A stretch of 64,000 bases of DNA from Terriglobia bacterium (GTDB lineage Bacteria > Acidobacteriota > Terriglobia > Terriglobales > Acidobacteriaceae), in NCBI GenBank assembly GCA_020073385.1, contig JAIQFH010000014.1, positions 62,001 through 126,000 of the forward strand. Reading direction: 5' to 3'. Under the pieces are notes generated by a model. The model made no database searches. It worked only from the letters and a program-made list of their open reading frames with translations, and was not told where the DNA came from. Below, piece after piece: positions 16,446-64,000 of the stretch (position 1 is the first letter of the stretch; every line of letters starts with the position of its first letter). Position numbers and translations under genes: made by a program.

Positions 16446-16498
16446 TTATGTGGGGACAGCCGCCGTCGGCTGTCCGGCGAGCGCAGCTCGCCACTCCG
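16446..16498 (+). repeat. family A palindromic repeat (copy 1)
   Basis: ATGTGGGGACAGCCG, then CGGCTGTCC closing the hairpin, then GGCGAGCGCAGCTCGCC. It lies 55 bp after the lepA stop, in lepA sense orientation. Confidence 0.75.
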
Positions 16499-16518
16499 GC
16501 GGTGGCGCTGGCGTTCCC

Positions 16519-16583
16519 GTGGAAGAGCAGCCCTTCAGGGTCGCGTTGAGTATCACAAAAAAGATTGGGCCTTAGCCCCTGCG
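16519..16583. repeat. family B palindromic repeat
   Basis: GTGGAAGAGCAGCCCTTCAG ... GGGCCTTAGCCCC, same layout as 1528-1592 and 13851-13915, with decayed first arm. Confidence 0.6.
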
Positions 16584-18653: not shown

Positions 18654-18704
18654 CAGTGGCGACGGCCGCCTTCGGCCGTCCTGTGAAGGCGAAGCCGAGC
18701 AGCG
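18654..18704 (+). repeat. family A palindromic repeat (copy 2)
   Basis: GTGGCGACGGCCG, CGGCCGTC closing arm, then the tail GAAGGCGAAGCCGAGC. It is upstream of dnaB and not behind a stop codon. Confidence 0.7.
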
Positions 18705-19407: not shown

Positions 19408-19459
19408 GTGTGGCGACAGCCGCCTTCGGCTGTCCCGCAAAGGCGAAGCCGAGCGGCCC
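19408..19459 (+). repeat. family A palindromic repeat (copy 3)
   Basis: GTGTGGCGACAGCCG, CGGCTGTC closing arm, and the same tail as copy 2 (AAAGGCGAAGCCGAGCGG). Confidence 0.7.
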
Positions 19460-23057: not shown

Positions 23058-23532
23058 CCTCTGTCATCCCGACCAAGCCACAGGACTGGCGCAGCCAGCC
23101 CGAAGGCGCGTGGAGGGACCTTGTGTTTTGTTTGTAAGCCGAAATTCGGAAAATGACGCGGGGGGCCCGATCTCTGGCCGGTTTTGCCAGAGGTGGGGAT
23201 TTTCGCGAACGTCGCCTTATCTCTCCATTGGAATTTTCTGACAAGCCAGAGGCAAGCAAATTCCGCGAAAAATGCGGGAAGCATTCCCAAAACGGGAACG
23301 CGACCGCGGTGAGTTGCCTCTTGAACGGTCCTTCAGGGCAGCGTCAGCACCATGTCCCGGAGGGACAACTGATAGTAGCCCGCCAGTTCACTGGCGGGTT
23401 GCGGCGCTAGGACCGCAGTGCCCCGTAGGGACACCTGAATTACTCGCCACATTCCCACCATGGGAAAACGAATCTTCCGTCCGTCGATTTGTCGACCCCG
23501 GTCACCGCACTGCGGCCTACACTGAATTGTTT
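23058..23532. other. spacer upstream of the RAYT gene, REP-like
   Basis: No gene. It includes a TCATCCCGA-type repeat near 23060, a hairpin CTCTGGC/GCCAGAG at about 23172-23193 and the triple-hairpin REP-like element 23354-23432. The remainder, 23433-23532, should contain the transposase promoter; not identified. Confidence 0.5.
23354..23432. repeat. REP-like triple hairpin, left of the RAYT
   Basis: Outer hairpin GTCCC-GGA-GGGAC (23354-23366), central CCCGCCAG-TTCA-CTGGCGGG (23379-23398, perfect), outer CCCCGTAGGGAC (to 23432). The central hairpin is identical to that at 24136-24155 on the other side of the transposase gene. Confidence 0.75.
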
Positions 23533-23979
23533 ATGCCGCACACCTACGTTTCCGACCTTGTGCATTGCGTCTTCTCGACGAAACTGCGCCGTACTCTGAT
23601 CAAACCGGAGATTCAATCGGATCTCTGGTCTTTCCTGGGTGGCATCGCGCGCAAGAACGAATGCAAAGCACTGATGGTCGGTGGCACCGAAAATCATGTG
23701 CACATGCTCTTGTCGTTGCCTGCAGATATGTCGCTGGCGAAGGCGATGCAATTGATCAAAGGCGCATCCTCGCGCTGGATGAACGAAACCCACACGCGGG
23801 ATTTCGCGTGGCAGGAGGGATACGGCGCATTCACGGTCGGCATCTCGCAAAAGGCCACCACGATTGCCTACATCCAGTCGCAGCCGGAGCATCATCGCAA
23901 ACGCAGTTTTGAGGAAGAATTCATCGCGTTCTTGAAGAAACACAACGTGGAATACGATCCGCGTCACGTGTGGGGTTAG
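23533..23979 (+). CDS. REP-associated tyrosine transposase (IS200-like, Y1)
   Basis: A 148-residue single-strand-specific Y1 transposase of the IS200/IS605 superfamily. The HUH motif is present as ENHVHMLLSLP (about residues 57-67). The catalytic Tyr is probably in TIAYIQSQPEHH, close to the family's Y-I-x-N-Q-x-x-H block. The N-terminal YVSDLVHCVFSTKLR is standard. Domesticated members (RAYTs) mobilise or maintain REP sequences. Here REP-like triple hairpins flank it at 23354-23432, 23997-24080 and 24111-24193. The ATG at 23533 is chosen; the longer open frame runs into the repeats. Confidence 0.9.
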   Translation: MPHTYVSDLVHCVFSTKLRRTLIKPEIQSDLWSFLGGIARKNECKALMVGGTENHVHMLLSLPADMSLAKAMQLIKGASSRWMNETHTRDFAWQEGYGAFTVGISQKATTIAYIQSQPEHHRKRSFEEEFIAFLKKHNVEYDPRHVWG

Positions 23980-28228: not shown

Positions 28229-28257
28229 CGGACGGCCGAAGGCGGCCGTCCCCACAT
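28229..28257 (-). repeat. family A palindromic repeat (copy 4)
   Basis: Core GGACGGCCG-N4-CGGCCGTCC at 28230-28251. It ends about 10 bp before the rpoD stop (28266), so it directly follows rpoD in sense orientation. Confidence 0.75.
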
Positions 28258-33807: not shown

Positions 33808-33872
33808 CTGGGGCTGAAGCCCGGTTTCATCTCGATCCGACTAACGCGGCCCTTGAAGGGCCGCTCTTCCAC
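33808..33872. repeat. family B palindromic repeat
   Basis: GGGGCTGAAGCCC, then CGCGGCCCTTGAAGGGCCG, ending CTCTTCCAC. Reverse orientation relative to 13851-13915. Confidence 0.7.
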
Positions 33873-34853: not shown

Positions 34854-37370
34854 TTAGACACTGAGTTCGACTAACGTTGCCCCTCCTCCGCCTTCGTTCT
34901 GCGGAGCCTCGGTCACTGACGCCACGTGCGGGTGTTGTTGCAGCATCTGGCGGAGGGCTTTGCGGAGGATGCCCATGCCGCTGCCGTGGACTACGCGGAC
35001 ACGCGGCAGTCCTGCCAGGAAGGCGCGGTCAACAAACTTTTCCACCTCACGGCTCGCGACGTCGACCGTCTGGCCAATGACGTTGATCTCGCTGGGCACA
35101 TTCGCGCCCTCGCTCTCGAGTTGCACCGAGATGCCTCGGGATCGCGCTGCTTTCACTGGGGTCTCGGCAGCGCGCGCACTCGAGAGCACTTCAGCGATGT
35201 CGTCGCGGGCGATCTTCATTTTCATCGCACCCATCTCGACTTCGAAATGTGTGTCGTCGATCTTGCGGGTGATTCGAGCAGTGCGTCCGGTGGACTTCAG
35301 CTTGACCGTATCGCCCTCGAGCACTCGCTTGACAACCTGCGGCTGGGCGTGGGGATCGCCTTGGTCCGCACCAGTGGAATGCGCTACGACCGTCGAGTCG
35401 AACTGCTCACGAAATTCGCGGCGCAGCTTGGCAATGCGGCGCTCGGCATCTTTGGAGAGCTTTTGCGCGGCAGCGCGATCCTGGATGGCGTTGACCGCTT
35501 CGCGGGCGTGATACTCGAAATCGCGCAGGACGCTCTCGAGTTTCTTTTCCATCTCTCGTACTTTGGCCTGCTGGTCTTTTCTTCCTTCCGCCTCCAAGCG
35601 CTTCTTTTCCCGCTCCAATTCCTCTTCGCGCGTTTTCAGGCGCAGTCGCTCGCTCTCCGCGTCGCGCAATTCGGCGTGAAGCTTGTCGAGGAACTGGCCG
35701 ACGTCGCGGGCTTGCGTGCCGAGACGCGACCGGGCGCTGTCGATGATGGACGGATTCAATCCCAGGCGCTGCGCGATGTTGATACCCGCCGACGCGCCGG
35801 GTACTCCGATTTTTAATTCGTAAGTGGGCCGCAAAGTGCGCTCATCAAACCCGACGGAGGCGTTAAGCACACCTGGCGTGTTCGCCCCGTAGACCTTCAA
35901 CGATGTGTGGTGCGTCGAGATGATGGTCATCGATCCAACTTGTCCGAAGTGGCTGGCGATGGCGACAGCGAGAGCAGCGCCTTCTTCGGGATCGGTGGCG
36001 GAGCCCAGTTCATCGAGCAACACCAGCGAGTGCGCCGTCGCGGTGCGCGATATGGAATCGATGTTGGTTACGTGCGCGGAGAACGTGGAGAGATTCTGCT
36101 CGATGGACTGGTAGTCGCCGATGTCGGCCAGGACTGCGTCGAATACGGGAAGCTCAGCGCGATCCGCGGGAACTGGCAGGCCAGATTGAGCCATCAGAGC
36201 CAGGAGGCCGGCGGTTTTCAGTGTGACTGTTTTGCCGCCGGTATTTGGTCCGGTGATGATGAGTTGGCGGCGGGCGCCTTCGAGCTCGATGCTTACTGGA
36301 ACTACGGAGTGGCCCTTTGCTTTTAGATTGCGTTCGAGCAGTGGGTGGCGGGCGTTGTGGAGAAGGAGGCTACCGCATTCCGGCGTTGGGCTTTCGGGTG
36401 AGACGGCTCGCTTCGCTTCGCCGGACAGCCGAAGGCGGCTGTCCCCACATGGTTCTTGCTGGCTTCCGCTCAGCTTCACTTCGACGCAGTTGTACTCCTC
36501 GGCGAATCTGGCTTTGGCAAATTGCAGTTCCAGCTCTGACAGAACTTCGAGGGCAGCGAGGATTGACTCGGCCTGTGCGCCGATTTGCTGTGTCATTTCG
36601 ATGAGGATGCGGTGAATCTCCGCGAGTTCCTCTTCCAGCAGGCGCACGAGTTCGTTGTTCTGCTCGATCGTCTCCAGAGGCTCGACGAAGACTGTTTGGC
36701 CGCTTGAGCTGGCGCCATGGACTACGCCCTGCACGCGGCGCTTCTGCTCAACTTTCACGGGGATGACGAAGCGCTCGCCGCGGATGGTGATGAGTTCGTC
36801 TTGCACCGTTCCGCCCTCGGCGAGGCGGCGGAGGTATCCCTGCAACGACTGCTGGATGGCGCGGCGTTGCTTTTCGATCTCACGACGGATGCGGGCGAGT
36901 TCGGGCGAGGCCTTGTCTTCAAGCGTTCCGTCGGGCTGGATCTTGTTGCGGAAAGAGCGAAGAAATTCGCCGAAGTCGGCGATACGCCCAGAGAGCGTGC
37001 GCGCCTCTGTCCATTCCGAGCGCATGGCCGCGGGCGGATGCAGGGACATCTCGCGCCATTCTGCGGCCCGATCGACGACCAGGATCACGTCGCGAATCTC
37101 GATCGTTTCCAAGGCCACGCCAGCGATACGGGCCTTCTCAACCAGCTCACCGACGTCGGTGAGTCCGGAGAAGTCGAAACGCCCGCCGACGCGGCGAAAC
37201 TCGCGGATTTCGGTCGCCAGAGCTTGTTGGGTCTGGATCCAGGCTCCATCGGTCGAAGGAGCAAGCGCTGCCACCCGGGCCTGACCAAGCGGGGACGAGC
37301 AGTATCCGCGCAGGAGTTCGCGCAGGGAATCGAACTCGAGCACGCGCGCGGAGTTGTGGATGAGGGGCAT
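34854..37370 (-). CDS. mutS2: endonuclease MutS2 with repeat-derived insertion
   Basis: An 838-residue MutS2 from the ATG at 37370 (MPLIHNSARVLEFDSLRELL); the longer frame is repeat sequence. The core and clamp domains are followed by the ABC-type ATPase (Walker A TGPNTGGKTVTLKTAG, about 360; LLDELGSATDPEEGAAL, about 440), coiled coil and C-terminal Smr nuclease domain (VRVVHGSGMGILRKA). Family members act in recombination suppression and ribosome rescue. Residues about 300-330, before LLHNARHPLLERN, contain a family A hairpin read in frame (CGDSRLRLSGEAKRAVSPES), a repeat insertion just upstream of the ATPase domain. Confidence 0.94.
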   Translation of the reverse strand: MPLIHNSARVLEFDSLRELLRGYCSSPLGQARVAALAPSTDGAWIQTQQALATEIREFRRVGGRFDFSGLTDVGELVEKARIAGVALETIEIRDVILVVDRAAEWREMSLHPPAAMRSEWTEARTLSGRIADFGEFLRSFRNKIQPDGTLEDKASPELARIRREIEKQRRAIQQSLQGYLRRLAEGGTVQDELITIRGERFVIPVKVEQKRRVQGVVHGASSSGQTVFVEPLETIEQNNELVRLLEEELAEIHRILIEMTQQIGAQAESILAALEVLSELELQFAKARFAEEYNCVEVKLSGSQQEPCGDSRLRLSGEAKRAVSPESPTPECGSLLLHNARHPLLERNLKAKGHSVVPVSIELEGARRQLIITGPNTGGKTVTLKTAGLLALMAQSGLPVPADRAELPVFDAVLADIGDYQSIEQNLSTFSAHVTNIDSISRTATAHSLVLLDELGSATDPEEGAALAVAIASHFGQVGSMTIISTHHTSLKVYGANTPGVLNASVGFDERTLRPTYELKIGVPGASAGINIAQRLGLNPSIIDSARSRLGTQARDVGQFLDKLHAELRDAESERLRLKTREEELEREKKRLEAEGRKDQQAKVREMEKKLESVLRDFEYHAREAVNAIQDRAAAQKLSKDAERRIAKLRREFREQFDSTVVAHSTGADQGDPHAQPQVVKRVLEGDTVKLKSTGRTARITRKIDDTHFEVEMGAMKMKIARDDIAEVLSSARAAETPVKAARSRGISVQLESEGANVPSEINVIGQTVDVASREVEKFVDRAFLAGLPRVRVVHGSGMGILRKALRQMLQQHPHVASVTEAPQNEGGGGATLVELSV
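36403..36452 (-). repeat. family A palindromic repeat inside mutS2 (copy 5)
   Basis: Core GGACAGCCG-N4-CGGCTGTCC (36423-36444) with the GCTCGCTTCGCTTCG tail on one side and CCCACATGG on the other. It is full length, in the sense orientation of mutS2, and open in the mutS2 frame. Confidence 0.8.
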
Positions 37371-37431: not shown

Positions 37432-37492
37432 CGGCTCGCTGCCCCCTCGACTTCGCTCGGGGCGGACAGCTGAGGCGGCTGTCGCCACATGA
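37432..37492 (-). repeat. family A palindromic repeat (copy 6)
   Basis: Core GGACAGC-TGAGGC-GGCTGTC at about 37464-37483, with the CTCGACTTCGCTCGG tail. It ends six bases before the histidine kinase stop (37498), and stands between the kinase and mutS2. Confidence 0.75.
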
Positions 37493-39356: not shown

Positions 39357-39418
39357 CAGGGGCTGAAGCCCACGTTCCTATTCGATCTGACGCGGCGCTA
39401 AAGCGCCGCTCTTCCACC
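39357..39418. repeat. family B palindromic repeat
   Basis: CAGGGGCTGAAGCCC, then GGCGCTAAAGCGCC and CTCTTCCAC; same layout as 33808-33872. Confidence 0.7.
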
Positions 39419-40770: not shown

Positions 40771-41190
40771 AGTAGGTTGATGGAGACTGGAAAACTAGCC
40801 GCAAAGAAACGATCCCATACGTAGTTTCTATTCCTGCGCTAAAGAGTGTGCGTGAGAACTTTCAGGCGTCCCTCCGGGGCGCGCTCAGTGTTCCACTTTA
40901 CCCGGCGCTGAAAGCGCCGGGCTATTCTCAGACGCCCCTCCGGGGCGCAAATCCTGCCCCGCTTGTCCCACAGCGCGGATTGAAAATGCGGTTCTCCTCT
41001 AAGGCCCTGTCGAGTTCGGATCATCAAACGCGGCGGCTGAAGCGCCGCTCTCCCACTTTGTCCGGCAGTCATAGTTTTGGGGTGGCGGTCAAAACGCGGG
41101 CTTTGCCCGCGGGACGGACCCTTCGACTGCGCTCAGGGCAGGCTGCGTGCGTCCCTACACTTGCGCCTTCGCGTTATTGATCCGAGGCTA
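40771..41190. other. repeat-rich spacer between hemB and the next gene
   Basis: No gene. It holds a REP-like triple hairpin (40864-40949), a family B fragment at 41028-41060 (GGCGGCTGAAGCGCCGC, CTCCCAC), and GCGGGCTTTGCCCGCGGGAC with GACCCTTCGACTGCGCTCAG (about 41094-41145). Confidence 0.55.
40864..40949. repeat. REP-like triple hairpin distant from the RAYT
   Basis: GCGTCCC-TCC-GGGGCGC, central CCCGGCGCT-GAA-AGCGCCGGG (40901-40921, perfect 9-bp stem), GCCCC-TCC-GGGGC. Same architecture as the copies beside the transposase at 23.5 kb, about 17 kb away. Confidence 0.75.
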
Positions 41191-41889: not shown

Positions 41890-41921
41890 ACGCCGGGCGC
41901 TAAAGCGCCGCTCTGCCACAG
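41890..41921. repeat. family B fragment
   Basis: GACGCCGGGCGCTAAAGCGC with CGCTCTGCCAC; only the second half of the family B element. Confidence 0.5.
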
Positions 41922-46526: not shown

Positions 46527-46578
46527 GTGCGGCCGCGCTTCGCGCTGACCGGACAGCCGAGGCGGCGGTCGCTACATG
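46527..46578 (-). repeat. family A palindromic repeat (copy 7)
   Basis: GCGCTTCGCGCTGACCGGAC, arm GACAGCCGAGGCGGCGGTC, CTACATGTG. The closing arm is mutated. The TAG of the ABM-like gene (46572-46574) is inside the element's edge. Confidence 0.7.
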
Positions 46579-49741: not shown

Positions 49742-53974
<4,233 letters not shown>

Positions 53975-54027
53975 GGTGTTCCTCCGCTTCCTGCGGTCCT
54001 GACGCGTCCGCTGACGGAGCTCTAAAA

Positions 54028-54062
54028 CAAGTTCTCTGTTCCCGGTTCTCAGTTCTCAGTTA
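54028..54062. repeat. GTTCTC tandem repeat in the rpoB-rpoC gap
   Basis: AGTTCTCTGTTCCCGGTTC with AGTTCTCAGTT, the same kind as 39479-39540. Confidence 0.55.
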
Positions 54063-54149
54063 AAACCGAGATCGAACTCTCGCCTTTCATGCGGCATTGA
54101 GCTCGGAATGCCGCAGTGGCCGTAAGTCAAAATCTCTTTCACCGTTGCC

Positions 54150-54185
54150 CCGGCTGGCTGTGGCGGCGAGACGCCGCCACCACAG
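54150..54185. repeat. palindrome after rpoB
   Basis: CTGTGGCGGCG-AGA-CGCCGCCACCACAG forms a strong imperfect hairpin about 20 bp after the rpoB stop. It may terminate or process the long operon mRNA, but no T-run follows. Confidence 0.5.
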
Positions 54186-54206
54186 CCGCCCGGACGGCGG
54201 CGCTAC

Positions 54207-58667
<4,461 letters not shown>

Positions 58668-59076
58668 CGTTAAGAAACTCCCAATCTCACGCGCAACCGA
58701 AGGTCACGCTTAAACCGCGGAATGTGGGGCGTGTACCGCCCCGCGGGACTTGCTTATGTGCAGAGCCGGAACAACTTAGAACCTAAAAGACGACGGGGCG
58801 CCCGCAGGGACAGTGGTTCCCGCAGACGCCTTGCAAGGCGTTTCGCCATTTCTGATTTGAACTCTTTCGTGCCAGTATCTCGGCCTGTTTCCGCTCCGCC
58901 TGCCCGCGGAGCAGCCTGCCAGAACTTCCCCGCGCGAGACTCGCTCGCGCTCGATAGCACCCTGGGAAGCGGTGTTATATAGATGCTAACATCGCCGCCC
59001 AAGGTTCACAAGTAGGAACGGACCAGAAAAACGATTTTGCACAACTTACGATGGAGCCTAGGACTGCGGCCCTGGT

Positions 59077-59122
59077 TCATGGTGGGGACAGCCGCCTCGG
59101 CTGTCCAGTCGCGGAGCGACGA
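59077..59122 (+). repeat. family A palindromic repeat (copy 8)
   Basis: GTGGGGACAGCCG-CCT-CGGCTGTCC, then CGCGGAGCGACGAAAC. Opposite to copies 9-12; with copy 9 it makes a large inverted pair. Confidence 0.75.
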
Positions 59123-59159
59123 AACAGTCCGTCTCGTCACCCCTGCTCTGGATCAGCAA

Positions 59160-59212
59160 AGACCTGTCGAGTTTTGCTCGACCGGACGGCCGAGGCGGCC
59201 GTCCCCACATGA
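59160..59212 (-). repeat. family A palindromic repeat (copy 9)
   Basis: Core GGACGGCCG-AGG-CGGCCGTCC-like at 59184-59204, CCCACATGAG edge; about 20 bp after the rplL stop, sense orientation. Confidence 0.75.
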
Positions 59213-59226
59213 GCACCTCAGATCCC

Positions 59227-59613
59227 TTACTTTACCTCTACCGTAGCGCCAGCTTCGGTGAACTTCTTCTTGATGGTCTCGGCCTCTTCCTTGGAGACGC
59301 CTTCTTTCACGTTCTTGGGCGCTCCGTCGACCAGTTCCTTGGCCTCTTTCAGGCCCAGGCTGGTGACTTCGCGAACGGCCTTGATCACGTTGATCTTGTT
59401 GGCACCGACTTCCTTGAGGACGACGGTAAATTCGGTCTTCTCTTCTGCCGGAGCCGCTCCTGCACCTGCAGCCGCACCGCCGCCCGCCACCATCACGGGA
59501 GCCGCTGCCGCCGCCGACACGCCTAAACGCGCTTCCAGCTTCTTGACCAGTTCTGCCGCTTCGAGCAGCGACAAGCCTACGATCGAGTCTTCAATCTGTT
59601 GCAGATCCGCCAT
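59227..59613 (-). CDS. rplL: 50S ribosomal protein L7/L12
   Basis: A 128-residue stalk protein that recruits translational GTPases. The N-terminal dimerisation helix ([29 protein letters not shown]), the Ala/Gly-rich hinge (residues about 35-55) and the C-terminal domain ([37 protein letters not shown]) are all present. Length standard. Second gene of the rplJ-rplL pair, 217 bp after rplJ, a wider gap than usual, filled by repeat copy 10. Confidence 0.97.
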
Positions 59614-59766
59614 GTTGATTCTCCGTTATTTAGTCTCTTGCTTTCGTCACCCACAGGCCAGGTTTCCAGTGCGACCAGGGTCCGTTTCCTCGCGCCAGAC
59701 AACGTTTGGAAAGGACCGCGCAACCCCTGAACTGCTGATGACCAAACTCGTTTATGCAGCCGGCCA

Positions 59767-59818
59767 AAACCACGTTCGCTGCGCTTGCTGGACGGCCGAA
59801 GGCGGCCGTCCCCACACA
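59767..59818 (-). repeat. family A palindromic repeat (copy 10)
   Basis: Core GGACGGCCG-N4-CGGCCGTCC at 59790-59811 with the TTCGCTGCGCTTGCT tail; 12 bp after the rplJ stop, sense orientation. Confidence 0.75.
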
Positions 59819-59830
59819 ATCTTTGCCCCT

Positions 59831-60364
59831 CTAGGCTTCCTTGAACTTCTTCTGCTGCACACCCTGGTCGACAACCACCGCCAGGTTGCGGCCTACTGCG
59901 CCCATTGCTGTGACTAGGCGCTGTGCCGGGGCATTGATCAGGAACAGGAGCTTCGCCATCAGCTCTTCCTTCGAGGGCATCGTCGCCAGCGCTTCGATCT
60001 CCTTAATGTTGATGACGCGGCCTTCAACCACACCGATCTTGAAGGTGAATTCCGGCGTGTCCTTGGCGTACTTGGTCAGGGCCTTGGCCATCGCCACCGG
60101 GTCACCGGTGGTGTAGGCAATCGACGTAACGCCAGCCAGATCCTTCAGCGCGCCTTCGACCTTGGTGCCCTTGGCTGCTTTTTCGGCCAGCGTGTTCTTG
60201 ACCACCTGATACTTGGCGCCCGCGCCGCGCAAAGCCTTGCGCAGCTCATAGTCCTGGGCGACGGTCATCTTGGTGTAGGTCGCTACGACCATGTTTGAAA
60301 CGTTGTTCAGGTCCTTGCTCAGCTTCTCGACCTGCTCTTTCTTCTTTGCTCTAGTAACTGCCAT
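59831..60364 (-). CDS. rplJ: 50S ribosomal protein L10
   Basis: A 177-residue L10, anchor of the L7/L12 stalk. MAVTRAKKKEQVEKLSKDLNNV, the KVTVAQDYELRKALRGAGAKYQVVKNTL block and a C-terminal helix for L12 dimers (PAQRLVTAMGAVGRNLAVVVDQGV) fit the family. In many bacteria L10-L12 represses its own operon by binding the leader; the leader here contains a repeat hairpin instead of an obvious L10 site. Confidence 0.96.
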   Translation of the reverse strand: MAVTRAKKKEQVEKLSKDLNNVSNMVVATYTKMTVAQDYELRKALRGAGAKYQVVKNTLAEKAAKGTKVEGALKDLAGVTSIAYTTGDPVAMAKALTKYAKDTPEFTFKIGVVEGRVINIKEIEALATMPSKEELMAKLLFLINAPAQRLVTAMGAVGRNLAVVVDQGVQQKKFKEA

Positions 60365-60404
60365 GGGTCAATTCCTCGAATCTTGTCAGTCTTAATAGCG
60401 TTCA

Positions 60405-60450
60405 GCGTTGCTCCGCAACGCGGACGGCCGATGGCGGCCGTCCCCACATG
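60405..60450 (-). repeat. family A palindromic repeat (copy 11)
   Basis: Core GGACGGCCG-N4-CGGCCGTCC at 60422-60443, tail GCGTTGCTCCGCAACGC; five to six bases after the rplA stop, sense orientation. Confidence 0.75.
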
Positions 60451-60455
60451 AATTC

Positions 60456-61166
60456 CTATGCCTTCGCGGCCGCTTCGATCGGAGTCACGTCCAACGAAAT
60501 CCCGGGCCCCATCGTCGAACTCAGATAGCACCCCTTGATGTACTTGCCCTTGGCTACCGACGGCTTGGCCTTGATCACGCTGGTGATCAGCACCGTGGCA
60601 TTCTCAATCAGCTTGTCGGGCGTGAACGAAATCTTGCCAACCGGGCAGTGGACGAGAGCCGTCTTGTCGGTACGGAACTCGACCTTGCCGGCCTTCACTT
60701 CCTGCACAGCCTTGCCCACGTCGAAAGTGACCGTGCCGGTCTTTGGATTGGGCATCAGGCCCTTCGGGCCGAGAACTTTACCCAGGCGTCCGACGGATTT
60801 CATCACGTCGGGCGTGGCGATCAGTGCGTCGAAGTCGGTCCAGTTTTCCTTGGTGATCTTCTCGACCATTTCTTCGCCGCCCGCGAAATCGGCGCCTGCA
60901 GCTTCGGCTTCCTTAATTTTGTCGCCGGTCGCGATGACCAGAACCTTTTTCGACTTGCCTAGGCCGTGCGGCAGAACGACTGTGCCGCGGACCATCTGGT
61001 CGGCGTGCTTCGGATCGACTCCCAGCCGCATGGTGACCTCGACGGTCTCATCGAACTTGGCGTACTTCACCTTCTGCAGGAGTGGAACTGCGTCCTGCAG
61101 AACATAGGGGCGCTTCTCGACTGCGGCGTGCGCCTTGGCGATGTTCTTTCCTTCTTTTTTGTTCAT
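60456..61166 (-). CDS. rplA: 50S ribosomal protein L1
   Basis: A 236-residue L1, two-domain protein of the mobile stalk. [60 protein letters not shown] and the C-terminal [10 protein letters not shown] are diagnostic. Length standard. Gap to rplK is 140 bp, with repeat copy 12. Confidence 0.97.
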
Positions 61167-61246
61167 TGCTGCTCCTTGTCTCCCACCGCTAACCGTTGAT
61201 CCGGAGAGCCGTGGTGTTCGACTACAAACTATCTACGCGGCTGGCG

Positions 61247-61297
61247 AAAACTCGCTCGCTACGCTCGCTGCACGGCCGAAGGCGGCCGTCCCCACAA
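61247..61297 (-). repeat. family A palindromic repeat (copy 12)
   Basis: ACTCGCTCGCTACGCTCGCTG tail (21 bases from the same unit repeated), core ACGGCCG-N4-CGGCCGT at 61272-61289, CCCCACA edge; about 10 bp after the rplK stop, sense orientation. Confidence 0.75.
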
Positions 61298-61306
61298 AAA
61301 CCGTTC

Positions 61307-61738
61307 CTAGCCGACTACTTCTATTCCCATGGAGCGTGCCGTGCCGCGGACGCTCTTGACTGCGGTCTCGATCGACGCGGCGTTCAGGTCGGGCATCTTC
61401 TGTTTGGCGATGTCTTCGACCTGCTTGGCGGTCACTTTGCCGACCTTATCTTTGTTCGGCGTGCCTGATCCCTTGGCGATGCCGGCGGCGCGCTTCAGCA
61501 GGATCGACGCCGGCGGCGTCTTGGTGATGAAGGTGAACGAGCGGTCGCTGTAAACAGACACGACGACCGGGATGATCAGACCTTCCATCTCCTTCTGGTT
61601 GGTTCTGGCGTTGAACTGTTTGCAGAACTCCATGATGTTGATCTGTGCCTGGCCAAGCGCCGGGCCGACCGGGGGAGCCGGAGTCGCCTTGCCCGCGGCG
61701 ATCTGCAACTTCACGTAACCTGTAACTTTCTTTGCCAC
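61307..61738 (-). CDS. rplK: 50S ribosomal protein L11
   Basis: A 143-residue L11 of the GTPase-associated centre. [49 protein letters not shown] and the C-terminal AAFIEGTAKSMG-like end ([15 protein letters not shown]) are intact. Standard length. It starts the rplKAJL-rpoBC series after nusG; a CTAGCTC repeat (61744-61776) is directly upstream. Confidence 0.97.
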
Positions 61739-61743
61739 TTCGT

Positions 61744-61776
61744 TAGCTCCTAGCTTCTAGCTCTTAGCCTCTAGCC
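61744..61776. repeat. CTAGCTC tandem repeat upstream of rplK
   Basis: AGCTCCTAGCTTCTAGCTC and further CTAGC units. Another array of this kind is upstream of rpmG (63185-63233), and a short one before the small ORF at 63382. Confidence 0.55.
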
Positions 61777-61848
61777 AAGGCTTTCAATCTCGTTGTCATC
61801 CTGAGCGGCGCTTTTTTGCCGCGAAGGACCTATGCATTTCTGCCGCGA

Positions 61849-62481
61849 TTACGCTACTTTTTCGACTTGATTAAATTCCAATTCCACCGGCGTCGACCGG
61901 CCGAAAATTGTGACCATCACCTTCAGCGTTTCGCGGTCTTCGTTCACTTCGTCGACTACGCCGGTGAAACTGGCGAATGGGCCTTCGGTGATGCGGACGG
62001 ATTCGTTCTTCTCGAACTTGACCTTGAGCTTTGGCTTCTCGCGGCTGTCAGCGACTTTATAAACGATGTGCTGTACTTCCTCATCCGAGAGCGGCGTGGG
62101 CTGCTGGCCGGTGCCGACAAATCCCGTGACGCGCGGTGTGGACTTCACGACATGCCACACGTGATCATCCATATCCATTTCGACCAGCACGTAGCCGGGA
62201 TAGAACATGCGCTCGGAGGTGTACTTCTTGCCGCCGCGAACTTCAGTGACCGATTCGGTCGGGATCAACACCTTGCCGATCTTGTCCTGCAGCCCGAAAG
62301 CTGCCACGCGGGACTCGAGCGATTCTTTGACCTTGCGCTCAAACCCCGAGTACGAGTGGATGATGTACCACTTCATGTTCGGGTTGCGTGGCGCCTCGGC
62401 GGTGGCCGTAACGCCTTCCGCGGCAGGCTGGGGCGCGCTTTCTCCGCCCGGCTGTGCTTCGTTTTTTTCTTCGTCCAGCAT
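61849..62481 (-). CDS. nusG: transcription termination/antitermination protein NusG
   Basis: About 210 residues from the ATG at 62481 ([15 protein letters not shown]). An acidic leader of about 45 residues precedes the NGN domain ([35 protein letters not shown]) and the KOW domain ([22 protein letters not shown]). It links RNA polymerase to Rho or the ribosome. The frame is open to 62550 but would overlap secE; the shorter start avoids that. Confidence 0.95.
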
Positions 62482-62527
62482 AATTTTGGTTGCTTCTCGG
62501 CCAGTTGCTGCGGCGCGGTTCTGCGAA

Positions 62528-62806
62528 TTAGTGAACTCTGAAATAGCCAAACATCGCCGTCACAGCTTTGTTAATGATGAAATCGATGATCCCGAAGTAC
62601 GCCGCGAAAATAAACACGGTGATGATGACCACCGTCGTCGTGCCGCGAACTTCCTTCCACGTGGGCGCCGTCACCTTGCGCATTTCCGTGCGTACGTCGT
62701 TGTAGAAGGCCTTGACCTTGTCCGGCCAGGACTTCAACCGCTCGAGAAAGTCGCCACCGCCTGCCACAATTGAATTCGCCATTTTCTTCGTCTCGACTGA
62801 CATCAC
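62528..62806 (-). CDS. secE: preprotein translocase subunit SecE
   Basis: A 92-residue single-span SecE (start at 62806 or the in-frame ATG at 62782). A short amphipathic helix ([27 protein letters not shown], with the conserved E-x-x-K-V-x-x-P block) is followed by one membrane helix ([24 protein letters not shown]). It stabilises SecY in the inner membrane. Located between tRNA-Trp and nusG as in most bacteria. Confidence 0.94.
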
Positions 62807-62849
62807 TACTCCTGGCCTTGGTCCTTCTCTTCCTCTTCCAAAACTCTGG

Positions 62850-62922
62850 CAGGGGCGGAGGGATTCGAACCCCCAAGTTCGGTTTTGGAGACCGACAGTT
62901 TAACCGTTGAGCTTACGCCCCT
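62850..62922 (-). tRNA. trnW: tRNA-Trp (anticodon CCA)
   Basis: Acceptor AGGGGCG pairs with CGCCCCT. The anticodon stem TCGGT/ACCGA encloses loop CTCCAAA with anticodon CCA, and the T-arm has GGTTCGAATCC. The D-arm is less regular, with an apparent mismatch. It lies upstream of secE, the conserved position for tRNA-Trp in many phyla. The terminal CCA is not encoded in this frame (a G follows). Confidence 0.93.
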
Positions 62923-62928
62923 GTGTTC

Positions 62929-63025
62929 ATTTGGTAATTTTGTAATTGAGTAATTTGGTAATTTGAAAAGCGCTTGAACCGCGGGTTTTCAATTCCCAAA
63001 TTACAAAATTTCCCAATTACCAAAT
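62929..63025. repeat. AT-rich inverted repeat between rpmG and tRNA-Trp
   Basis: TTTGGTAATTTTGTAATT and onward (62929-62965) against AATTACAAAATTTCCCAATT (62996-63025), loop about 30 nt. It is the AT-richest point in the window and lies between two genes of one transcript. Confidence 0.6.
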
Positions 63026-63178
63026 CTACTTCACTTCTTTGTGGGCGGTGTGCTTGCGGCAACGGCGGCAGAATTTCTTGAATTCCAGCCGCTCGGTCGT
63101 CGTTTTGCGGTTCTTCGTCGTCGAATAGTTCCGCTCTTTGCAATCACCGCACTGTAATGTCACTATTTCTCGGGGCAT
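63026..63178 (-). CDS. rpmG: 50S ribosomal protein L33
   Basis: A 50-residue ribosomal protein. It reads [20 protein letters not shown], then [29 protein letters not shown]: four cysteines in two CxxC pairs, the zinc-binding form of L33. Usual length and place, between tuf and secE. Confidence 0.93.
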
Positions 63179-63184
63179 CTCAAC

Positions 63185-63233
63185 AGCTCCTAACTAAGCT
63201 GCTAGCTCCTAGCTCCTAGCTGCTAGCTTCCAG
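63185..63233. repeat. CTAGCTC tandem repeat upstream of rpmG
   Basis: CTGCTAGCTCCTAGCTCCTA and neighbouring units, seven bases each; same family as 61744-61776. Confidence 0.6.
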
Positions 63234-63238
63234 CAAAA

Positions 63239-63382
63239 TCAGAGAACATCATCCTTTGGCGGCCTCTTTGCTTCTTCTTTCGCCCATCTAATCAAGGTTC
63301 CCCACGGCACGCAATTAACCGCAAGAACCGCGAGGACAGCAATCAGCCACCCTAATTCTCGCCATTGCATAAGGCGTTCCAT
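63239..63382 (-). CDS. small membrane protein, putative
   Basis: A 47-residue ORF between tuf and rpmG: MERLMQWRELG, a hydrophobic stretch LIAVLAVLAVNCVPWGTLI, and a charged end (RWAKEEAKRPPKDD). One membrane helix with a basic cytoplasmic tail is plausible. No clear ribosome binding site is seen; a CTAGCT-type repeat adjoins the start. It may be spurious. Confidence 0.35.
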   Translation of the reverse strand: MERLMQWRELGWLIAVLAVLAVNCVPWGTLIRWAKEEAKRPPKDDVL

Positions 63383-63406
63383 CCTAGCTAGTAGCTAGAA
63401 GTTGCC

Positions 63407-64000
<594 letters not shown>

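Follow-up and report, generated by a model that had tools for sequence, protein, structure and literature searches.

The window analyzed here, a 64-kb stretch that is part of contig C55 in an 8.2-Mb genome of 140 contigs, contains the ribosomal protein genes rplK, rplA, rplJ, and rplL, followed by rpoB, and 12 copies of a short palindromic repeat that we refer to as family A. The first-pass annotation had also counted 12 copies, and our recount confirmed that number. Eight of them were recovered with a pattern scan that allowed up to 3 mismatches and that gave almost no matches in shuffled windows (mean, 0.01). Copies 8 and 9, which have a 3-nt loop, were found by a separate scan, and the degenerate copies 6 and 7 were taken from a repeat listing. 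Pfam agreed with the gene names that had been assigned earlier, namely, sigma-70 (rpoD-like), histidine kinase, ABM domain, L7/L12, L10, L1, and L11. The copies and the ribosomal protein genes lie as follows.

16450..16475, plus strand: family A copy 1, with a sense stop 58 nt before it
18656..18681, plus strand: family A copy 2 (GTGGCGAC variant), no sense stop close before it in our own gene calls
19410..19435, plus strand: family A copy 3 (GTGGCGAC variant), no sense stop close before it in our own gene calls
28230..28255, minus strand: family A copy 4, 10 nt behind a sigma-70 gene
36423..36448, minus strand: family A copy 5, within an open MutS2-like gene
37463..37488, minus strand: family A copy 6, a degenerate copy with its head 9 nt past the stop of the histidine kinase gene
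46551..46575, minus strand: family A copy 7, also degenerate; the stop codon of the ABM-domain gene is the TAG in its GTAG head
59082..59106, plus strand: family A copy 8, in the rplL-rpoB gap, reversed partner of copy 9
59166..59182, minus strand: second stem-loop of copy 9, 6 bp
59184..59208, minus strand: family A copy 9, with its head 18 nt past the stop of rplL
59227..59613, minus strand: rplL (L7/L12), by Pfam
59790..59815, minus strand: family A copy 10, with its head 15 nt past the stop of rplJ
59831..60364, minus strand: rplJ (L10), by Pfam
60405..60421, minus strand: second stem-loop of copy 11, 7 bp with a 3-nt loop
60422..60447, minus strand: family A copy 11, with its head 8 nt past the stop of rplA
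60456..61166, minus strand: rplA (L1), by Pfam
61270..61295, minus strand: family A copy 12, which has one mismatch, with its head 11 nt past the stop of rplK
61307..61738, minus strand: rplK (L11), by Pfam

Seven copies (4, 6, 7, 9, 10, 11, and 12) had been described as following or overlapping a stop codon in sense orientation with the head toward the stop, and all seven do so, at 10 nt, 9 nt, an overlap, 18 nt, 15 nt, 8 nt, and 11 nt, respectively. A copy is likewise present in each of the four gaps of the rplK-A-J-L-rpoB run, every one of which had been said to be occupied. The claim of five copies in this operon holds as a count, but the fifth (copy 8) points the opposite way and pairs with copy 9. 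These two form a head-out doublet of 127 bp (positions 59082 to 59208), an inverted close pair of the kind that defines BIMEs and REPINs; none of the other ten copies in the window has a partner as close. Measured to the head, three of the four repeats behind the rpl stops (8, 11, 15, and 18 nt) lie no more than 15 nt from the stop; measured to the stem, which starts 4 nt past the head, two of the four do.

Across the genome, a strict pattern, which leaves out degenerate copies, matched 87 copies of family A, all with a GTGG head, and a broader pattern matched 130, while a control pattern read backward had no matches. The anatomy is that of a REP: a GT(A/G)G head joined to a palindrome, present in high copy number (130) and chiefly extragenic, with 70 of the 87 strict copies intergenic and 17 overlapping genes called by our own simple codon-score caller. 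In a sample of 61 genomes, the pattern occurred in 36 of the 37 that belong to this acidobacterial genus and in none of the 24 from other genera. In a comparison of L1 proteins, the nearest named relatives were two metagenome bins (palsa_361 and fen_338) that carry the label Acidobacteriaceae.

The stop lies on the head side for 48 of the 70 intergenic copies, and for 29 of them the head is within 30 nt of a stop. Intergenic space is itself found at gene ends, and such positions might in principle arise by chance among random insertions; with random placement and orientation in the same gaps, however, the number of heads this close averaged 12 and reached at most 22 in 2,000 trials. Chance is therefore an extremely improbable explanation, and the assertion that the placement is nonrandom was borne out. 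The genome-wide check of distance and orientation supported a bias toward stops but gave no significant orientation bias: copies in tandem gaps were 24 sense and 17 antisense (P = 0.35), so that a significant genome-wide rule of heads toward stops was not borne out. For convergent gaps, 17 of 24 copies had the head as the nearer end (P = 0.06). Closeness to stops is thus real, and it is known for REPs, while a head-first rule is not established. In the portion of PMC3733652 drawn on here, the REPs of P. entomophila and S. wittichi adjoin the 3' ends of genes, often at less than 20 bp in convergent gaps.

Seven genes encoding Y1-type transposases (Y1_Tnp) are present in the genome. At five or more of these seven loci (L031, L034, L035, L036, and L037), inspection of the repeat listing by eye showed GT(A/G)G-headed repeats on the flanks, of a different class at each locus. 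The gene for a REP-associated tyrosine transposase (RAYT) at L037/L109, on contig C121, has family A palindromes on both sides in inverted orientation. Its protein scored 26.6 bits against Pfam Y1_Tnp (cutoff, 23); with NF047646, the REP transposase model of NCBIfam, the score was 79.4 bits (E = 2.3e-22), just under the cutoff of 80. The copies that flank it have GTAG heads, and in one case GGAG, versus GTGG in the strict genome copies. Both the score and the heads count against the explanation that we favor below, although GTGG-headed copies do flank RAYTs in relatives. Nine RAYT loci, our own included, were fetched at 64% identity or higher, and family A-type copies lie on both sides of the gene in all nine when up to 2 mismatches are allowed in the head and in the arm (six of nine with a stricter detector). 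Seven of the nine have an outward inverted pair, and the remaining two are cut by contig ends. More distant RAYTs have the same head and other stems. Family A is a RAYT-linked REP class, of an already known kind, and the likening of the repeats to E. coli REP/BIME sequences was right, as judged by the head, the palindrome, the number of copies, and the inverted copies on either side of a RAYT.

If the RAYT aimed its insertions at gene ends, the placement of the repeats would reflect target choice and not selection. The base before the head (-1) is T in 85 of 87 copies and the next (-2) is A in 66 of 87, which argues for some target or boundary preference, and at the rplL-rpoB slot, 8 of the 10 cases in plus orientation have the head 6 to 10 nt past the stop even though the stems differ. 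The T at -1 may nevertheless belong to the element itself, and the distance to the stop is not fixed, extending from 7 to 76 nt and more, and 17 of the 87 copies overlap called genes. On these grounds, we do not favor the earlier suggestion of a mobile element directed at translation ends and regard it as decidedly improbable.

Other repeats of this general kind were observed. A second family, built around GTGGAAGAGCGGC and its reverse complement, occurs in the window at positions 17 to 61, 1512 to 1556, 16502 to 16546, 33849 to 33872, 39394 to 39417, 41033 to 41056, and 41896 to 41919, and repeats of this family also flank the RAYT at L035, in another part of the genome. The window also contains an IS200/RAYT-like transposase gene (positions 23272 to 23979) flanked by its own, different palindrome (GTAGCCCGCCAG...), which represents another repeat class. 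In the rpoB-rpoC gap (positions 53942 to 54206), a GTAGCGCC palindrome stands directly behind rpoB, with a short heptamer array further on.

In 56 of the 87 strict copies, the hairpin is followed by a second stem-loop with a stem of at least 6 bp and a loop of 3 to 4 nt, whereas 200 mononucleotide shuffles averaged 4 such copies and never exceeded 11. The most frequent form pairs 7 bp around a 3-nt loop, and stem sequences are very variable yet complementary. GNA-type loops are unusually stable in DNA. DNA folding of the four rpl copies gave two clear stems in copies 9 and 11 and did not do so in copies 10 and 12, the latter barely exceeding its shuffles (z = -1.0).

Hairpins between rpl genes might also act as intrinsic terminators or attenuators, and T is the commonest base 3 to 8 nt past the second stem (for example, in 27 or 28 of 56 copies at three positions). 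The terminator scan nevertheless listed none at the four rpl hairpins, and its 6 predictions in the region compare with 5.3 in shuffles; moreover, one terminator per gap would cut off the downstream genes of the operon. We consider this possibility very improbable, and we rejected assignment of the four hairpins to the intrinsic terminator class (a G+C-rich hairpin and then a T run). A known RNA family at the rpl gaps was rejected as well, since a search of positions 54000 to 64000 against Rfam returned only a tRNA and one match far under its family threshold.

If pairing were selected in the transcript, G·U should be tolerated above A·C. In the ribosomal-gap hairpins, G·T and A·C mismatches were equally common (55 versus 58 in the S10 gaps described below and 15 versus 11 in the rpl gaps), and the intergenic family A copies in transcript sense had no G·T and five A·C mismatches. 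Copies classed as antisense inside genes showed the opposite trend (seven G·T and two A·C), but they contain many other mismatches and may be chance matches. Since G·T does not exceed A·C, structures shaped at the DNA level are favored and a transcript function is less likely. The specific transcript-level role that the first-pass annotation had suggested was not supported, as neither mismatch test showed an RNA-level signature.

For the rpl operon in relatives, we used a sample of 41 genomes from the genus, which has more members than these; L1 was found in 30 of the 41. Gap lengths come from 28 to 30 genus genomes (our own included) and 16 to 18 genomes of other genera, and thirty of the loci are only 3 kb long. 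The rplK-rplA gap spans 65 to 269 nt in the genus versus 0 to 134 nt in other genera, the rplA-rplJ gap spans 57 to 192 nt versus 4 to 110 nt, and the rplJ-rplL gap spans 170 to 658 nt versus 21 to 153 nt. These lengths agree, for the related genera, with the earlier remark that ribosomal spacers are normally short. In the genus, GT(A/G)G-headed palindromes occupy the post-stop position in 8 of 28 rplK-rplA, 18 of 30 rplA-rplJ, 10 of 29 rplJ-rplL, and 11 of 26 rplL-rpoB gaps, and other hairpins occupy it in 11, 5, 8, and 6, respectively. No occupant was detected in the remaining 9/28, 7/30, 11/29, and 9/26, by a detector that misses degenerate copies (the rplA-rplJ gap of L101 was scored as having none, and its sequence shows one). 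In the outgroup, the gaps with no detected occupant were 15/16, 17/18, 14/18, and 8/18 in the same order; the rplL-rpoB gap is therefore not distinctive of the genus, as 10 of 18 outgroup genomes have a hairpin there.

The head faces the stop in most REP occupants of three of the four gaps, our own genome included: 5 of 8 at rplK-rplA, 8 of 10 at rplJ-rplL, and 10 of 11 at rplL-rpoB (23 of 29 in total, with head-out doublets counted as facing the stop). At rplA-rplJ, the occupants are mostly reversed, with the head toward the stop in only 4 of 18 and away from it in 14 of 18. Stems vary between species at the same gap. Where the right flank is similar, at eight rplA-rplJ loci, both sides of the stem have changed at 4 of its 9 positions, and Watson-Crick pairs fill 69 of 72 cells, a figure that leans upward because the arms were picked for pairing. 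According to the part of PMC3686654 consulted, new REP variants may take the place of earlier ones once an orthologous RAYT has undergone a switch.

Two further elements were noted in these gaps. Within the rplJ-rplL gap (window positions 59614 to 59830; L079 to L107), a segment of some 130 nt that precedes rplL is conserved and resembles a structured leader. By eye, it is present in about 27 of 29 aligned genus genomes, partial in L082, and absent in L093, and in the window, it had no Rfam match. The rplK-rplA gap (positions 61167 to 61306) contains a conserved, hairpin-like CACCACGG...CGGTGGGAGAC element right before rplA, seen by eye in most of the genus genomes listed.

The S10-spc-alpha operon of the same genome (L139, G000:C130:46000-65761) has similarly loose spacers. 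Its median gap is 82 to 107 nt in six genus genomes (27 to 28 gaps each) versus 14 to 35 nt in four other genera; two further genus genomes gave medians of 64 and 82 nt from only 8 and 7 gaps. Many of these spacers (in L139, L185, L186, L187, L189, and L190) contain variable heptamer arrays, often opposite their own reverse complement. Such arrays were found in 47 of 135 genus S10 gaps versus 1 of 76 other gaps of our own genome, 0 of 29 outgroup gaps, and none in shuffles. The heptamer at a given gap often changes from species to species. Some arrays also occur outside the genus, as seen by eye in outgroup rplJ-rplL or rplL-rpoB gaps (L157, L162, and L167), although the 29 outgroup gaps without arrays in the test above were all from the S10 operon. 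That many spacers in the ribosomal protein operons of the genus are filled by family A-like and unrelated hairpins is unusual.

One account of these spacers is a selected slot for a hairpin behind the stop in the ribosomal protein operons of the genus, which might serve, for example, segmental mRNA stability or spacer looping-out, the terminating ribosome in the latter version staying near the next start. REPs and heptamer arrays would then replace each other because any folding repeat can serve. Post-stop folding z scores below -2 were found in 14 of 24 S10-operon gaps versus 14 of 76 other codirectional gaps of the genome, and post-stop stems of at least 10 were found in 9 of 29 S10-operon junctions versus 7 of 105 others and in no shuffles. 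Stems of at least 9 occur in 10 of 28 S10-spc-alpha gaps of our own genome and in 13, 11, 15, 12, and 4 of 27 to 28 in five relatives, compared to 1, 0, 0, and 1 of 28 in four other genera. The occupancy of individual gaps agrees across six species (matched in 0 of 5,000 permutations) while their content differs, and the change on both sides of the rplA-rplJ stems points the same way. Part of the agreement in occupancy nevertheless comes from common descent and from gaps close to 0 nt, in which nothing would fit, and the choice of rplA-rplJ arms for their pairing weakens the stem comparison. Codirectional gaps of the window, the rpl gaps included, have no excess of folding: 3 of 20 gaps have a z score below -2, and 2 of 22 junctions have stems of at least 10. 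The mismatch counts, the rpl slots scored as empty, and the rplL-rpoB hairpin of the outgroup likewise speak against a selected slot. We also rejected the idea that heptamer hairpins span their gaps beyond chance, since they begin a median of 3 from the stop and end 8.5 from the start, against 6 and 7 in shuffles. Overall, we judge a selected slot to be unlikely. The broader proposition that the spacers have been lengthened and kept occupied by a hairpin behind the stop, with indifference to sequence, so that RAYT-spread REPs of several stem classes and variable heptamer arrays opposite their own reverse complement swap at the same gap, seems to us doubtful, if slightly less so.

Our preferred explanation, which we hold with considerable confidence, is that family A is a REP class multiplied by a cognate RAYT, that its copies persist mainly behind stop codons through purging of the others, and that the rpl copies are such residents. 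The palindrome would have been multiplied in the genus by the RAYT (HUH/Y1 family), presumably as a single-stranded hairpin, and copies would persist mostly just past stops because insertions in coding sequences, leaders, and promoters are lost to selection. The four rpl copies would then be residents of spacers that have lengthened in the genus and in which a hairpin-forming repeat of some kind is often present. In rpl transcripts, the repeats would give stem-loops starting 12 to 22 nt past the stop, which may incidentally affect mRNA decay or translation termination; nothing measured shows that they are kept for such an effect. This passive account is strained by the presence of five copies in one operon and of other hairpin kinds in many ribosomal spacers, and the head orientation at three of the four rpl gaps of relatives also counts against it. 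The best reading remains that these are DNA repeats tolerated behind stops, with selection for a hairpin by shape alone possible but unproven. The longer ribosomal spacers, with several unrelated and mutually replacing hairpin types, are the part most worth following, and they provide a natural experiment for telling selection of intercistronic hairpins by shape alone from mere tolerance. If occupancy is selected, a sequence-free structural requirement between cistrons would be supplied by parasitic repeats.

E. coli REPs that lie no more than 15 nt from a stop reportedly reduce translation, a finding ascribed to Liang in 2015 and relayed in PMC12306157. The rpl copies resemble these translation-limiting REPs in placing a hairpin close past the stop of an expressed gene; unlike them, the rpl hairpins show no RNA-level signature in their mismatches. 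The heptamer arrays resemble the TAACTGA repeats of Beggiatoaceae (PMC4679880) in being intergenic and in lying partly in ribosomal protein operons. As described in the excerpted text of that report, the TAACTGA repeats are direct, lie mostly upstream of starts, and consist of one fixed heptamer, whereas many arrays here oppose their own reverse complement and the heptamer differs between species. The TIRYT elements of Koribacter and other Acidobacteria, in the relevant section of PMC3733652, share with our system the phylum and tyrosine transposase genes with flanking inverted repeats. The same section attributes repeats belonging to a repeated family to only one K. versatilis gene, unlike the GT(A/G)G-headed REPs of several stem classes that we find across one genus.

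A close match is also seen with the REP, BIME, and REPIN sequences of E. coli, Pseudomonas, and Stenotrophomonas. In the passages of PMC2817692, PMC3733652, and PMC3686654 that we compared, the published REP/RAYT anatomy fits the features of family A and L037: a GT(A/G)G head, a short-loop palindrome, many copies, doublets, a RAYT between inverted copies, residence behind coding regions, and a head that supplies a TAG stop. Family A differs from known REPs in its stem sequence and host phylum, in the variable but still complementary second stem-loop of 56 of its 87 copies, and in its presence in all four gaps of one ribosomal operon. It adds to these systems a well-linked RAYT/REP pair in Acidobacteria.
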